NCBI GenBank assembly: GCA_903892045.1
Contig: CAITGX010000159.1
Coordinates: 1 to 48,565, forward strand
Reading direction: 5' to 3'
DNA length: 48,565 nucleotides
Source of the DNA: an uncultured Planctomycetota bacterium
Lineage (GTDB): Bacteria; Planctomycetota; UBA1135; GCA-002686595
This document shows positions 33,111 to 40,000 of this stretch, one piece after another; position 1 is the first letter of the stretch; the number at the start of each line of letters is the position of its first letter. Position numbers and translations under genes: made by a program. The notes below the pieces were generated by a model. The model did no database searches and was not told the DNA's origin. It was given only the letters and a program-made list of their open reading frames with translations.

Positions 33111-34427
33111 ATGGCGCGCCGGAGCACCATCGCGGCGATCGCATCGCCGCCGGGGCCCGGCGCGCGCGGCGTGATCCGGCTCTCGGGCCCGCGCGCATTC
33201 GAGTTCGTGCGCGCCTGCGCGCGTTTCGATGCGCCGGGCGCGCTCGAGGCGCGGGGAGCGTGGCGCGGTCGCCTGCACGACGGCGAGGGCGAGCAGCCTC
33301 TGATCGCGCTGGCGATGCCCGGGCCGCGCTCGTTCACGCGCGAGGACGTGTGCGAGCTGCACCTCCCGGGCTCGCCACCGCTGCTCTCGGCCGCTCTCGC
33401 GCGCCTCGTGGCGCTGGGCGCGGAGCTCGCGGCGCCGGGAGAGTTCACGCGCCGCGCGTTCGAGTCTGGGCGCATCGACCTGTCGCAGGCCGAGGGCGTG
33501 CTCGAGCTCGTGATGGCTCACGATGAGGCCGAGCGTCGCGCCGCGACCGCGCTGCTCTTCGGCGGGCTCTCGCAGCGGCTTGCGTCGCTGCGCGCGCGCC
33601 TGCTCGACGTGCGCGTCCTGTGCGAGGCGAGCCTCGACTTCGACGAGGCGGACACGGGCCACGTGCCGCACGAGGAGCTGCGCGAGCGGGCGGCGATCGT
33701 GGCGCAGGAACTCGAGGCCGCGCTCGGCTGGGAGCGCAGCCGGACGCGTCGTGCGCAGCGGCCGCGGGTGGTCCTCGTCGGCCAGCCCAATGCGGGCAAG
33801 AGCACCCTGTTCAACGCGCTCGTCGGCGGCGAGGCGCTCGTCAGCGAGCGCGCCGGGACCACCCGGGACGCGCTGCGCGGCATCTGGCGCTTGCCGACGC
33901 TGGACTGCGAGCTCGTCGACACGGCGGGCGAGAGCGAGGCGTTCCTCGCGCTGGCGGACGACCATCCCGATCGCGTGGCCCAGCGCATGGCGCAGCACGA
34001 GCGGCTCGCGGCCGACCTCGTCTTGCGGGTCTACGATGCGCGGGAAGCTGCGCCGCAGCGAGCGGAGGGCGAGCTGCTCGTGCGCGCCCAGAGCGACCGC
34101 GCGCAGGGCCCCGGCGACGGCCTCGCCACGAGCGCGCTCACGGGCGCAGGGCTCGGGGAACTCGGGACCGCGGTCGAGCGGGCGCTCTCCGAGCGACAGG
34201 CTGCCGCCGGCAGTGGTCGGGAGCTCTCCGAGCGGCACGGGGAGGCCCTGCGGCGCTCCCGGGAGCGGGTCCTCGAGGCGCTCGCCCTGCTCGACGCGCG
34301 GGGGCCGCTCGACCTCGTGGCGGAGTCCCTGCGGGCGGGGCTCGACGCCCTCGACGCGATCGAGGGCCACACCAGTCCGGAGGACGTGCTCGACGCCCTG
34401 TTCGCGCGCTTCTGCCTCGGAAAGTGA
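33111..34427 (+). CDS. mnmE: tRNA modification GTPase MnmE (divergent, degenerate G4 motif)
   Basis: TIAAIASPPGPGARGVIRLSG...LAAPGEFTRRAFESGRIDLSQAEGVLELV...VVLVGQPNAGKSTLFNALVGGEALVSERAGTTRD...ELVDTAGESE...; ends in LFARFCLGK. The usual NKxD position reads AQSD. Confidence 0.93.
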   Translation: MARRSTIAAIASPPGPGARGVIRLSGPRAFEFVRACARFDAPGALEARGAWRGRLHDGEGEQPLIALAMPGPRSFTREDVCELHLPGSPPLLSAALARLVALGAELAAPGEFTRRAFESGRIDLSQAEGVLELVMAHDEAERRAATALLFGGLSQRLASLRARLLDVRVLCEASLDFDEADTGHVPHEELRERAAIVAQELEAALGWERSRTRRAQRPRVVLVGQPNAGKSTLFNALVGGEALVSERAGTTRDALRGIWRLPTLDCELVDTAGESEAFLALADDHPDRVAQRMAQHERLAADLVLRVYDAREAAPQRAEGELLVRAQSDRAQGPGDGLATSALTGAGLGELGTAVERALSERQAAAGSGRELSERHGEALRRSRERVLEALALLDARGPLDLVAESLRAGLDALDAIEGHTSPEDVLDALFARFCLGK

Positions 34428-34472
34428 GCCCGGAGCGGGGGCGCAGCCGGTCGGACGGGGCTCCCCGCCCAG

Positions 34473-34488
34473 ACACAAGATGTTGTAG
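34473..34488. promoter_or_regulatory. Candidate NrdR box
   Basis: ACACAAGATGTTGTAG matches the NrdR-box consensus acaCwAtATaTwgtgt at 12 of 16 positions, 35 nt upstream of nrdR, and abuts a TAGGAT -10-like hexamer (34486-34491). Only one box is visible. Confidence 0.4.
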
Positions 34489-34523
34489 GATGGCCGCCCC
34501 CGAGGCCCCGCCGCCCTCCCCCG

Positions 34524-34994
34524 ATGAAGTGCCCGCGCTGCAAGCAGGACAACGACCGAGTCGTCGACTCGCGCGCCGCCCTCGAGGGAGCCTCGATCCG
34601 GCGCCGCCGCGAGTGCCTCGAGTGCTACCTGCGCTACACCACCTACGAGCGCGTCGAGGAGACGCCGCTGCGGGTGATCAAGAAGAACGGCGAGCGCGTG
34701 CGCTTCGAGCGCGATCGCGTGCTGCAGGGGATGATGCGCGCCTGCGAGAAGCTCCCGGTCTCGACCGAGGAGCTCGAGAAGGCCGCCGCGCGCATCGAGG
34801 CCCGCTGCCAGGAGGAGTACGACCGCGAGCTCCCGAGCTCCGTGATCGGCAACCTCGTGATGGAGGAGCTCAAGGGCCTGAATCAGGTCGCCTACGTGCG
34901 CTTCGCCAGCGTCTATCGCGAGTTCAAGGACGTGGCGCAGTTCCTCGACGAGTTGAAGCCGATCCTCGAGCAGCGCCGTCCGGAGGGCTCGTAG
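34524..34994 (+). CDS. nrdR: Transcriptional repressor NrdR
   Basis: MKCPRCKQDNDRVVDSRAALEGASIRRRRECLECYLRYTTYERVEETPLRVIKKNGERVRFERDRVLQGMMRACEKLPVS: Zn ribbon plus ATP-cone. Confidence 0.97.
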   Translation: MKCPRCKQDNDRVVDSRAALEGASIRRRRECLECYLRYTTYERVEETPLRVIKKNGERVRFERDRVLQGMMRACEKLPVSTEELEKAAARIEARCQEEYDRELPSSVIGNLVMEELKGLNQVAYVRFASVYREFKDVAQFLDELKPILEQRRPEGS

Positions 34995-34995
34995 G

Positions 34996-37071
34996 GTGCC
35001 GACGCGCGTGCGCAAGCGCGACGGTCGGGAGGTGCCCTTCGACGCGCGCAAGATCGATGCGGCCGTCTGCAAGGCCCTCGACGCGGTCGGGGAGGTCGAC
35101 CCCGGCTTCGCCGGTGAGATCGCCGGCGTGGTCACGCTCACGCTCGAGGGCCGTTACGGGGCGGACTCGCCGCCGGGCGCGGCGGTGCCGGGCATCGAGG
35201 AGATCCAGGATCTCGTCGAGCAGGCGCTGATCGAGCTCGGCCGTGCCAACGTCGCCAAGGCCTACATCCTCTACCGCGACCGCCGCGCGCGCGCGCGCGA
35301 GGCGCTGTCGGTGCACGACGGCGACGCGGTCGGCAAGCAGCGTGTCGAGGTGCAGGCCAAGGATCGCACCCAGCCGTGGAGCAAGGTGCGCATCGTGGCG
35401 GCGCTCATCAACGAGGCGCAGCTGCCGCGGGAGCTCGCGGAGAAGGTCGCCACGCGCGTCGAGGAGCGCGTGTTCGCCGCGCGCTGGCGGCAGGTCTCGA
35501 CGGCGCTCGTGCGCGAGCTCGTCGACAACGAGCTCCTCGACCTCGGGCTGTCGGCGGCGTTGCGGCGCCAGGTTTCCTACGGCCTGCCGAGCTTCGACCT
35601 GCGCAACGCGCTCGCGCACGAGGACGCGCCGCTCGATCCCGCGCGCGCGGCGCAGGGCGAGGAGCTCGCCGAGCGCGGGATCCACCAGCGCATCGCCGGC
35701 GACGTGCTGCGGCGCTTCGCCCTCAACGAGGTGCTCGGCGAGGAGAGCGCGCGCGCCCATCTCGCGGGCGACCTGCATGTGCTCGACCTCGGCCGCCCGC
35801 AGCAGGCGCTGTGGTGCTCGGTGCCGGCGACGCTGCTGCAGGCCGGCGGGGCGCAGGCCGACGCGCCCTACGACGTCCTCGACGAGCTCGCGCTCGTGGC
35901 GCGCGATGTCGCGCACGGGGTCGTGCTCGAGGATGCCTCGGCGCTGCTCGCGCCGCTGTGCGCGAGCTCGCGCGGGTCGGCGCTCGAGACGTGGTTGCGG
36001 GCGCTGTGCGCGTGCGCCGGTGCGGCCGGTCGCTCGCTCGACCTGCAGGTCGGCGGCGGTGGCGCGCGCTCGCAGGCGGCGACGGATCGCCTGATCGAGG
36101 CCCTCGCGGCGTTGCCGCACGTGGCGCTTCCGCCGCGGCTCTTCATCGATCACTCCGACCTCGCGCGCCGGCTCGAGGACCGTGGGGGGGATCCGGCTTA
36201 TCTCGCTGCGGTGGAAGCGCTGCTGCTCGCCGGGCGGCTGGTCCCGACCTGGGGCACCGACGCGGTGCAGTGCGTCGGGCCGGGCCTGCACCGCCACGCT
36301 CACGAGCGCGCGACGCTCGCCTGCGGCGGCGCGGTCGCGATCAACCTGCCGCGCATCGCGCTGCGCGCGGGACCGTGGCGCGAGGATCGCGTGCTCGAGC
36401 TGCTCTCGGGGGCCGCGACAGCGGCCGTGGATGCGCTCGCGGAGCTGGCGGCCTTCCAGCGGCGCACGCGCGGCTCGCGGCCGGGCGACCTGCGCGGGCG
36501 GCTCGCCTACGCGGTGACGCCCGTCGGCCTGCGCGAGGCGCTCGCGACGCTCGGTGACGGCGACGTGCGACCGGATCAGGGCGCGCGGCTGGTCGGTTTC
36601 CTCGCCGAGGCATTGCAGCGCGCGGGCGATGCCAAGCGGCTCGCCGTCGTGCTCACGCCCTACTTTGGCGAGCAGGCGCGCGCGCGCTTCGCGGAGCTCG
36701 ACGCCGCCTTGCCGCAGCACGCTCAGCGGCTGCTGTTCGGCGAGGCTGCGCCGGCGGCGTCGCGCGCTCCCTACGTCGTCGGTTATCGGCTCTCGCCCGT
36801 GCACGGGCGGACGCCGTGGTCGGCGGAGTCCGTGCTGCTGTCGACTGTCGAGGTCGGAGCGCTGCATCCCCTGCCCGAGGACACTTCGCGCGGCGGTCCG
36901 CTGTCGCTCGTCGAGTCCTGGCGGCGCTTCGATCGCCTGCGCGAGGATTCCGGCGAGCGCGAGCTCGCTCCGCAGTCCTCCGTCGTCACCCAAGAGTCCC
37001 ACCTGTTCGACCCCGAGATCCGCACCCCGGAACCGTCCGCGCGCGAGCGCGCGAGCGGCCCCACCCGCTGA
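34996..37071 (+). CDS. NrdD-like protein with two ATP-cone-like regions, apparently lacking the glycyl-radical/zinc C-terminus
   Basis: VPTRVRKRDGREVPFDARKIDAAVCKALDAVG... (ATP-cone); QPWSKVRIVAALINEAQLPRELAEKVATRVEERVFAARWRQVSTALVRELVDNELL (second cone-like region); HLAGDLHVLDLGRP, INLPRIAL and TPVGLREALATLGDG resemble NrdD. No RVxGY-type glycyl loop or Cys4 knuckle before the stop; smc starts 3 nt later. Confidence 0.75.
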   Translation: MPTRVRKRDGREVPFDARKIDAAVCKALDAVGEVDPGFAGEIAGVVTLTLEGRYGADSPPGAAVPGIEEIQDLVEQALIELGRANVAKAYILYRDRRARAREALSVHDGDAVGKQRVEVQAKDRTQPWSKVRIVAALINEAQLPRELAEKVATRVEERVFAARWRQVSTALVRELVDNELLDLGLSAALRRQVSYGLPSFDLRNALAHEDAPLDPARAAQGEELAERGIHQRIAGDVLRRFALNEVLGEESARAHLAGDLHVLDLGRPQQALWCSVPATLLQAGGAQADAPYDVLDELALVARDVAHGVVLEDASALLAPLCASSRGSALETWLRALCACAGAAGRSLDLQVGGGGARSQAATDRLIEALAALPHVALPPRLFIDHSDLARRLEDRGGDPAYLAAVEALLLAGRLVPTWGTDAVQCVGPGLHRHAHERATLACGGAVAINLPRIALRAGPWREDRVLELLSGAATAAVDALAELAAFQRRTRGSRPGDLRGRLAYAVTPVGLREALATLGDGDVRPDQGARLVGFLAEALQRAGDAKRLAVVLTPYFGEQARARFAELDAALPQHAQRLLFGEAAPAASRAPYVVGYRLSPVHGRTPWSAESVLLSTVEVGALHPLPEDTSRGGPLSLVESWRRFDRLREDSGERELAPQSSVVTQESHLFDPEIRTPEPSARERASGPTR

Positions 37072-37073
37072 CC

Positions 37074-40000
37074 ATGCGACTGCAACGCCTCGAACTGTTC
37101 GGCTTCAAGTCCTTCGCCGATCGCACGACGCTCAACTTCAACGACGCCTTCACGGGCATCGTCGGACCCAACGGCTGCGGCAAGTCGAACGTGGTCGACG
37201 CCGTGCGCTGGGTGCTCGGCGAGACGCGTCCGACGTCGATGCGCGGCGGCGAGATGACGGACGTGATCTTCAAGGGCTCGGTCTCGCGCCCGCCGATGAA
37301 CGTGGCCGAGGTCACGCTCGTGCTCGACAACACCTGCGGCACGATCGCGCAGCAGGGCTCGGAAGTGGCGATCACGCGCCGCGTGTACCGCTCGGGCGAA
37401 GGCGAGTACCTGATCAACGGCGAGCGCGCGCGCCTGAAGGACGTGCGCGACATGCTGTTCGACACCGGCCTCGGGAGCCGCGGCTACTCGGTGCTCGAGC
37501 AGGGCAAGATCGACGCCGCGCTCTCGGCCAACTCGCTCGACCGCCGCGCGATCTTCGAGGAGGCGGCCGGCATCAGCCGCTACAAGGTCAAGCGCAAGGA
37601 GACGGACGTCAAGCTCAAGCGCGTCGAGGCGGACCTCGTGCGCCTCGACGACGTGCTCAAGGAGCTCGGCAGCCGCGTGCGCTCGCTCAAGATCCAGGCC
37701 GGCAAGGCCGAGCGCTTCGTCGCCGCGCGCGACCTGTGGAAGGGCCAGCGCTCGCGCTACCTGAAGCACCGCCTGCACGAGGGGCGAAGCGCGCTCGCGA
37801 GCCTCTCGGAGCAGATCACGGCGCTCGAGGCGCGCTGCGAGTCGCTCAAGACCTTGCGCGCCGACGGCGAGTCGGACGTCAGCACCCGCGAGCGCGAGCA
37901 GGAGACCATCTCGGCCGAGATCGACCGTCTCTCGGGCGAGATCCGCCGACTCGTCGGCGAGGACAGCGAGTGCGCGGAACGCCAGCGCCAGCTCGAGTCG
38001 CGCGCCGCGGACCTGCGACGCAACTCCGAGGGCGAGGCGCGACGCGCCGAGGAGCTCGGGCGCGTCGTCGAGACGCGCAGCGCGGAGATCGAGGACGTGC
38101 GCACGCGCAAGGCCGCGATCGAGGAGCAGCTCTCGCAGTCGCGCAGCACCGCCGACGGCGAGCAGGTGACCCTGCGCGAAGCCCGCAACACCCAGCGCGA
38201 GCTGCGCGCCAACTGCGAGCGCCAGAACCAGATCGTGCTCTCGCACCTGAACGAGCGCACCGCCGCGCAGAACCTCGAGCGCACGATCGAGCTCTCGCGC
38301 CCGAGCTTGTCGGAGCGCCTGCAGCGCGCGCAGCTGCGCATGGAGGAGTCCGGCCGCGAGGTCGAGGTCCTGCACGGCGACCAGTCGGCCGCCGAAGGTC
38401 GCGTGATCGACGCGCAGAACGACCTCGGCGTGGCCGAGACGACGCTGCGCGACCTGCAGGCCGGCCAGCAGGCGCTCGAGCGCGAGGAGCAGGAGCGTCG
38501 CGCCGCGCGTTCCAAGCACGAGGTCGAGCGCGCGCGCCTCACCAGCCGCATCGACACGCTCAAGGACATGGAGCACGAGCGCTCGAGCCTCGAGGCGGGC
38601 GCGCGCGCGCTGCTCGAGGGCACGCGCCGCGGCCAGGGCCCGTGCGAACCCGCGCAGCTCAAGGGCCTCGTCGCCGACCACCTGCGCACGTCGACGCGCC
38701 TCGCGCGCGCCCTCGACGCGGCGCTCGGACCGGCGGCGCTCGGCCTCGTCACGGAGGATCCCGAGCTCGCCGGTCGCATGCTGCGCTGGCTCTCGGAGCG
38801 CAAGTCCGGCCAGGTGCGCGTGTACGTGCCCGGCGGCATCGGTGTGCGCGAGCAGGGCAAGCGCGACGCCGCGCTCGCGCCCTTCCCGCGTCTGCTCGAC
38901 GAGCTCGAATGCAGCGGCGGCTTCGAGCCGCTGGCGGCGCTGCTCGTCGGCGACGTGCTGGTGGTCGAGGAGCTCGAGCTGGCGATCGCGCTCGTGCGCG
39001 AGCACCCGCAGTGGCGCTTCGTCACGCCCGCGGGCGACCTCGTCAGCGCGGCCGGCGTGTTTGGCGGTCACCGCGAGGTGACGCAGGGTGCCGTCGGTCG
39101 TCGCGCGACCGCCGCGGAGTTCGCGCGCGAGCTCGAGGGCATCGAGAAGGCGATCCGCGAGGAGACGGCCGAGCTCGAGCGCATCGCGGGCGAGCGTCGC
39201 GTGGTGGCCGAGCGCCGCGCGCACGCGCAGTCGGAGTGCGACCGCCGTCGTCAGCAGCTGACGGACGCGCGGGCGCAGGCCCAGACGGCCAAGGCGCGCA
39301 TCGCGGACCTCAGCCGCGTCGCGGGGCAGCTCGCGCGCGAGCACGAGGCGATCCTCGCCGACCAGCGCCGCCTCGACTCGGAGCTCGCTGGCGCGCAGAA
39401 GCGGCATGCGACGGCCCAAGCCAACTTCACGCGCGAGAACGAGAAGCTCGCGGTGCTCGATGCCGAGCGCGTGGCGCTCGAGGCGCGCATCGAGACGCTG
39501 CAGTCGAGCGCCTCTTCGGCGGAGAGCATCGTGATCCGCCAGAACGCCGAGCTCAGCACGCTGCACGCGCGCGTGCGCGACCTCGATCGCGGCCTGTCGG
39601 AGGCCCGTGCCGAGCTCGAGCGCTCGACGCGGCTGTCGCGCGAACATGCGGAGGCCGCCGAGGCCGCGGTCGCCGAGGCCGCGCGCGTGCGCGTGCGCGG
39701 GGACGAGGTGCTCGTCGAGCGCGCGGCGGCCGAGGCGCGCTTCAAGGAACTGCGCGAGGCGGAGTCCGCCGGTCGCGAGGCCGTCAGCGTGTTCCGCGCG
39801 CGCGTCGATGCGGTGACGCGCGAGCTCGAGAGCCTCGCCGGCGAGCTGTCCGAGCGTCGCATGGACGCGCAGAAGATCGAACTCGTCGCCGCGGAGCTCG
39901 TCGTGCGCACGCGCGAGGACCTCGGCATCTCCGAGGCCGAGCTGCTCGAGGGCTTCGAGCCCGAGGCCGAGCTCGCGGAGGCCGGCGCCCTCGACGGGCT

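Follow-up and report, generated by a model that had tools for sequence, protein, structure and literature searches.

The window, by which we mean the whole stretch of 48,565 nucleotides that was analysed, is from contig C159 of a 4.4-Mb Planctomycetota MAG (487 contigs, 91% complete). Downstream of mnmE, its forward strand carries nrdR (34524..34994), which encodes the 156-aa ribonucleotide reductase (RNR) transcriptional repressor with a Zn ribbon and an ATP-cone (TIGR00244, E 4.3e-58). This gene is followed on the same strand by an ORF of 691 aa (34996..37071, stop codon counted in), which starts with GTG and has no internal stops, and by the 5' part of smc (37074..37700, start of the gene alone), with its ATG at 37074. 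The ORF begins after a gap of 1 nt from the end of nrdR, as an earlier sequence-only reading had stated, and its stop codon lies 2 nt from the smc ATG, where that reading had given 3 nt. Based on the ORF, Pfam, hhalign, Foldseek and the catalytic columns, we annotated it as pseudo-nrdD, a class III RNR homologue that is very probably dead. A NrdR-box-like palindrome, ACACAAGATGTTGTAG, is located at 34473..34488, ~50 bp upstream of nrdR.

All features of the ORF lie on the + strand. It opens with an ATP-cone (35005..35289, 69 bits) that has the intact KRDG motif of an ATP-cone protein, followed by a second ATP-cone-like domain (aa 123-200, 35362..35595). A shortened NrdD-type barrel that lacks the catalytic residues spans aa 228-655 (35677..36960) and is supported by AlphaFold2, hhalign and Foldseek. 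It includes, by alignment, the finger loop at the radical-cysteine position (aa 427-433, 36274..36294), which reads VGPGLHR, as compared to SACCRL in active NrdD. The last residues (aa 656-691, 36961..37068) form an unstructured tail, with a dN/dS of ~1 and a pLDDT of ~30, in place of the Zn-Cys4 knuckle and glycyl loop of NrdD.

NrdD ancestry and loss of catalytic parts

Pfam identified the ATP-cone (PF03477) in two stretches of the protein (E 1.4e-24), and the profile match of the second (35362-35580) reached 25.9 bits against a cut-off of 25.8. Thus, both of the cone-like regions that the sequence-only reading had placed at the N-terminus were recovered. The second cone-like domain is common to Brocadia-type NrdD, with ~50% identity (hhalign E 7.4e-24). 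From the conserved cone motif, we infer that pseudo-NrdD may bind ATP or dATP.

Beyond the cones, a Pfam NRDD match to residues 228-274 was barely above the cut-off (E 3e-6), and a plain sequence search against solved structures mostly matched the cone, while a profile that included relatives matched the barrel of P. copri NrdD. The barrel alone (215-655) aligned with the Brocadia-type NrdD profile (hhalign P 97.5%, E 5.5e-12), more weakly when residues 215-254 were omitted (E 1.6e-7). The AlphaFold2 model of the 691-aa protein had a mean pLDDT of 77, with values of ~90 across most of the barrel and ~30 in the tail, and when it was compared with the PDB using Foldseek, the top 9 matches were class III RNRs without exception (best E 2.3e-15, TM ~0.43-0.55). 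Because the barrel-only hhalign comparison and the top Foldseek matches agree, the kinship with NrdD beyond the cones is not due to chance. These two results answer the structural comparison proposed with the sequence-only reading, and they trace the class III RNR-like motifs noticed there to an NrdD origin. The TM-scores are moderate, so the modelled barrel appears recognisable as NrdD but altered.

To assess the catalytic residues, we compared the columns of 32 family members with those of 20 active double-cone NrdDs, in which all of the tested catalytic columns were intact. The K, R and G columns of the cone motif were kept in 31, 32 and 32 of the 32 family members, respectively, and the Zn-Cys4 knuckle was absent from every one of them. 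Both Asn residues of the NxN flap, a substrate flap that is important in class III RNR (PMC11226230), were present in 20/20 active NrdDs and neither was found in the window genus, whose VGPGLHR finger loop also has no radical (thiyl) cysteine. One finger-loop Cys is kept in ~20 of the 32 family members, although its correspondence to the thiyl Cys is uncertain. The glycyl-loop column falls within the unalignable tail, and the family alignment contained no RxxGY motif at the C-terminus. Nor was an RxxGY loop encoded in any frame of 34000-39000, where the single regex match, RLVGF, is an internal barrel helix; as the sequence-only reading had argued, neither a glycyl-radical domain nor a frameshifted C-terminus is present. 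The Pfam Gly_radical model (PF01228) gave no match, which is uninformative for NrdD-type loops because it models PFL-type domains.

These comparisons show that the NxN flap, the radical cysteine, the zinc knuckle and the radical glycine have been lost, and that the activase gene nrdG is gone from the site. They also answer the proposal to examine Cys and Gly conservation in homologues, and the earlier suspicion of an altered catalytic site was well founded. No NrdG2 (TIGR02495) exceeded the cut-off in the window genome, which is 91% complete and in which the best match (E 8.6e-10) was below it, or among the window-order genomes sampled. Similarly, no stand-alone glycyl-radical domain was found in the window order. 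Judged by its sequence features, the 691-aa protein does not qualify as a functional class III RNR, yet it descends from that family; it is very probably a catalytically dead RNR relative.

Origin, selection and erosion at the nrdR-smc site

Intact double-cone NrdD (~820 aa) is encoded after nrdR in Candidatus Brocadia and other lineages, and anammox and other anaerobic Planctomycetota carry it at this same site. The gene order in Brocadiaceae is nrdR-nrdD-nrdG2-smc, and in window-type genomes pseudo-nrdD is followed directly by smc. Over the N-terminal ~270 aa, the window protein is 43-45% identical to Brocadia NrdD. Because intact NrdD occupies the same site and is ~44% identical over the cones, pseudo-nrdD is an in-place descendant of nrdD at an ancestral nrdR-nrdD-nrdG-smc site, not a duplicate. 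The sequence-only reading had called it an RNR paralogue and had asked which other RNRs the genome holds. Class I NrdA/NrdB and class II NrdJ are encoded (nrdJ is broken across two contig ends, C7 and C22 of G000), and no canonical NrdD was above the cut-off in the window genome or the window order, so the gene is an eroded in-place nrdD and not a paralogue beside a canonical one. The pairing of nrdR with pseudo-nrdD, another feature singled out for checking, is conserved in relatives. Since this adjacency is ancestral and inherited, it argues weakly for joint function, and a NrdR-specific function argued from adjacency was downgraded.

Of 61 related genomes, 41 encode a relative of the 691-aa protein, and the matches were open frames without internal stops. 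Five genomes of the window family (G005, G016, G026, G031 and G033) lacked the protein; they also lacked a detectable nrdR, so the whole locus is probably missing through genome incompleteness. Overall dN/dS between genus members was 0.08-0.36 (Nei-Gojobori). By region, it was 0.015-0.21 for the cones, 0.07-0.36 for the barrel and ~1 for the C-terminal tail; these values are approximate, as dS was simply estimated and is moderately high. These results show that the cones and barrel are maintained by purifying selection. The protein, which has lost its catalytic residues and is under purifying selection, is a pseudoenzyme.

A fragmented MAG of 487 contigs could be suspected of a sequencing or assembly truncation, or a frameshift, of an ordinary nrdD. 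However, independently assembled relatives at 92, 91, 85 and 69% identity share the same C-terminus followed by smc; evidence of truncation in close relatives was one of the refutations that the sequence-only reading had named. The same catalytic parts are missing from relatives across the family, including residues upstream of the missing region. Together with the dN/dS values, these observations rule out an artefact for all practical purposes.

The constraint on the protein has shifted from barrel to cones. When pairs were matched at ~45-65% identity in cone 1, their barrels were ~71-72% identical in active NrdDs versus 40% in the window family. The window-family barrel nevertheless has conserved stretches of its own, such as RAGPWRED and PVGLREAL.

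The sampled genomes can be arranged in an erosion series. Intact NrdD with nrdG (stage 1) is followed by dead proteins that still have an nrdG2-like gene alongside (f35, f73 and f19), by dead proteins of ~690 aa without an adjacent nrdG2 (the window family), and by shortened dead proteins with an open frame of ~555-610 aa (f5). At stage 5 (f6), a lone ATP-cone of 137-154 aa is encoded between nrdR and smc, with an ORF start that overlaps the end of nrdR by ~25-40 nt (L209 1970-2434; equivalents in L210, L213 and L214); the one lone cone tested with Pfam scored 24.8, slightly below the cut-off of 25.8. At stage 6, nothing recognisable was found between nrdR and smc in the f7 genomes. The lone-cone stage and the shift of constraint to the cones suggest that the ATP-cone may be the functional core of pseudo-NrdD.

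A quick cone-region tree, which was unrooted and had many open forks, grouped dead and living forms non-randomly; its row L131 is labelled dead but is merely cut by a contig end. Two forms, f55 (radical Gly replaced by Asp, RIADYF) and L086 (on a long, unsure branch), were placed among living forms. This placement points to more than one loss of activity.

Several other arrangements were observed in the phylum. Two loci, L084 and L085, encode NrdD-like proteins of full length that have Asp in place of the radical glycine (RIADYF); they keep the zinc cysteines and have lost the finger-loop cysteines. At L087 and L092, an NrdG2-like radical SAM gene comes immediately after a dead NrdD-like gene, although a glycyl loop was not detected in either genome. 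Genome G190 has a single-cone Thermotoga-type NrdD and a separate double-cone protein of ~500 aa (C35:43890-44657, C1:31621-33345).

In nine further NrdDs, all from other families (L070-L072, L074-L077, L079 and L080), every active-site and zinc residue tested is intact and the glycyl loop is replaced; no such loop was found elsewhere in the fetched loci of these nine. Seven of the nine genomes encode a stand-alone protein, in an open frame of ~105-220 aa, that ends in an NrdD-type loop (L158, L159, L166, L167, L170, L171 and L173). The other two, G283 (96% complete) and G203 (73% complete), may lack the domain through assembly gaps, although its true absence is possible in G283 given the completeness of that genome. 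All eight Brocadiaceae genomes sampled have an intact NrdD as well as the stand-alone domain (L156, L157 and L160-L165), and none of the 199 genomes sampled has the domain without NrdD. From its sequences, this arrangement resembles either a split class III RNR or a spare part of the GrcA type that has turned obligatory.

A possible nucleotide sensor and its rivals

The palindrome upstream of nrdR scored 28.1 bits, the best matrix match in the 48.5-kb window (next non-overlapping site, 12.6), a score that is partly circular because the matrix was built from nrdR-upstream sites including this one. A consensus scan showed that the palindrome is conserved upstream of nrdR in relatives; no clear second box was found there at the usual spacing. 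Among the nrdA upstream regions, which were not in the matrix (L186-L204), 10 of 19 scored above the 99% shuffle level, and several relatives have a second, weaker box-like site 31-32 bp away upstream of class I nrdA. This distance agrees with the published NrdR arrangement of two 16-bp boxes with a 15-16 bp spacer, and a single box upstream of nrdR has been predicted to bind NrdR weakly (PMC12051234). Because the boxes match the published two-box arrangement, NrdR probably regulates nrdAB as well as its own operon, pseudo-nrdD included, through these predicted sites.

We propose that pseudo-NrdD is a stable ATP/dATP-sensing scaffold. ATP or dATP would bind the first cone and alter the oligomeric state of the protein, as occurs in NrdD and NrdR. 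This change would tune RNR supply, most probably through joint action with NrdR, the repressor encoded alongside, which itself uses an ATP-cone as its sensor and seems to regulate both nrdAB and its own operon. Cone conservation and the lineages in which the cone alone survives favour a nucleotide-sensor role. That the pseudo-RNR acts as an ATP/dATP sensor with NrdR in particular is a leading possibility that falls a little short of an even chance; the explanation as a whole, a dead RNR and a sensor with NrdR, we hold, as a compromise, to be slightly on the probable side. Against it, the single box upstream of nrdR is predicted to be a weak NrdR site, f7 genomes have nrdR and no detectable pseudo-NrdD, so NrdR can work alone there, and the barrel, which a pure cone sensor does not need, is still conserved in the window family.

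The conserved barrel could instead mean that the dead subunit regulates a living RNR, NrdA or NrdJ, directly, by hetero-oligomerising through its cones or barrel. In class I and III RNRs, ATP-cones exert their effect through oligomerisation (PMC11226230), and the genome has both NrdAB and NrdJ along with a barrel kept under selection. However, pseudo-NrdD is retained whether or not a class I NrdA was detected in the genome, and the lone-cone stage has no barrel. We consider direct regulation unlikely, if the best of the rivals. Selection on the barrel (dN/dS well below 1) and its own RAGPWRED and PVGLREAL residues are also what would be expected if it had been repurposed to bind or act on a different ligand, the cones serving as an allosteric switch retained from NrdD. 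This is less likely again, because it is the barrel that evolves quickly between species, f5 proteins are shorter and those of f6 have no barrel at all.

The clear erosion series, with complete loss in f7, might suggest that pseudo-nrdD is a decaying, functionless relic. The dN/dS values of the cones (0.02-0.2) and the barrel (0.07-0.36), the open frames and a cone KRDG motif that is almost invariant over 32 sequences make this improbable. If the window protein were instead a working class III RNR that receives its glycyl-radical domain from a second protein, it would have apparent precedents in related members of the phylum, but in those split systems the other tested active-site residues are all intact and NrdG2 is usually above the cut-off. 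The window protein has lost its cysteines, flap and zinc site, and neither a stand-alone domain nor an NrdG2 above the cut-off was found; supply of the domain in trans was rejected for the window order and is scarcely credible for this protein. The sensor acting with NrdR remains our preferred reading. More broadly, we tentatively suggest, at less than even probability, that some Planctomycetota turned an anaerobic RNR into an ATP/dATP-sensing regulator working with NrdR, while other lineages split off its glycyl-radical domain.

Comparison with known systems

Regulatory pseudoenzymes are well known, and one derived from ribonucleotide reductase is apparently new. A search of open-access papers found no report of an RNR-derived pseudoenzyme, although earlier reports may exist elsewhere, and that literature held nothing on point concerning NrdD or ATP-cones in Planctomycetota or stand-alone glycyl domains for RNR. 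Because many stages, from working enzyme to lone regulatory domain, occur at one syntenic site, the gain-of-regulation hypothesis is directly testable. It is also relevant to the control of dNTP supply in lineages that have abandoned an anaerobic RNR. In addition, proteins of this kind may be mistaken for anaerobic RNRs in annotation, leading to wrong inferences on anaerobic growth.

With class III NrdD (the double-cone protein of Candidatus Brocadia; class structures PDB 8p23, 9d3x, 1h78 and 4coj), the window protein shares the site after nrdR, both cones, the barrel fold and the conserved INLPR and GLxE stretches. In contrast to NrdD, it has no NxN flap, radical cysteine, zinc-Cys4, radical glycine or nrdG, and its barrel has ~430 residues instead of ~550. 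NrdR is likewise an ATP-cone sensor, encoded in the same operon, whereas the window protein lacks the Zn ribbon, has no recognisable DNA-binding domain and begins directly with the cone. The trypanosome AdoMetDC prozyme (PMC5201418) is also a catalytically dead relative of a metabolic enzyme that has been kept by selection; unlike in that case, there is no living NrdD in the window genome, so any partner must be a different protein.

The stand-alone planctomycete proteins resemble GrcA/YfiD, a small autonomous glycyl-radical domain able to stand in for one that has been lost, as described for pyruvate formate-lyase (PMC12288474). They differ in having an NrdD-type loop (RIVGYFSRxxNWNKSK) and in being found solely in genomes with NrdD. 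Alongside the pseudo-RNR, this apparent split class III RNR would give the phylum a second new arrangement.
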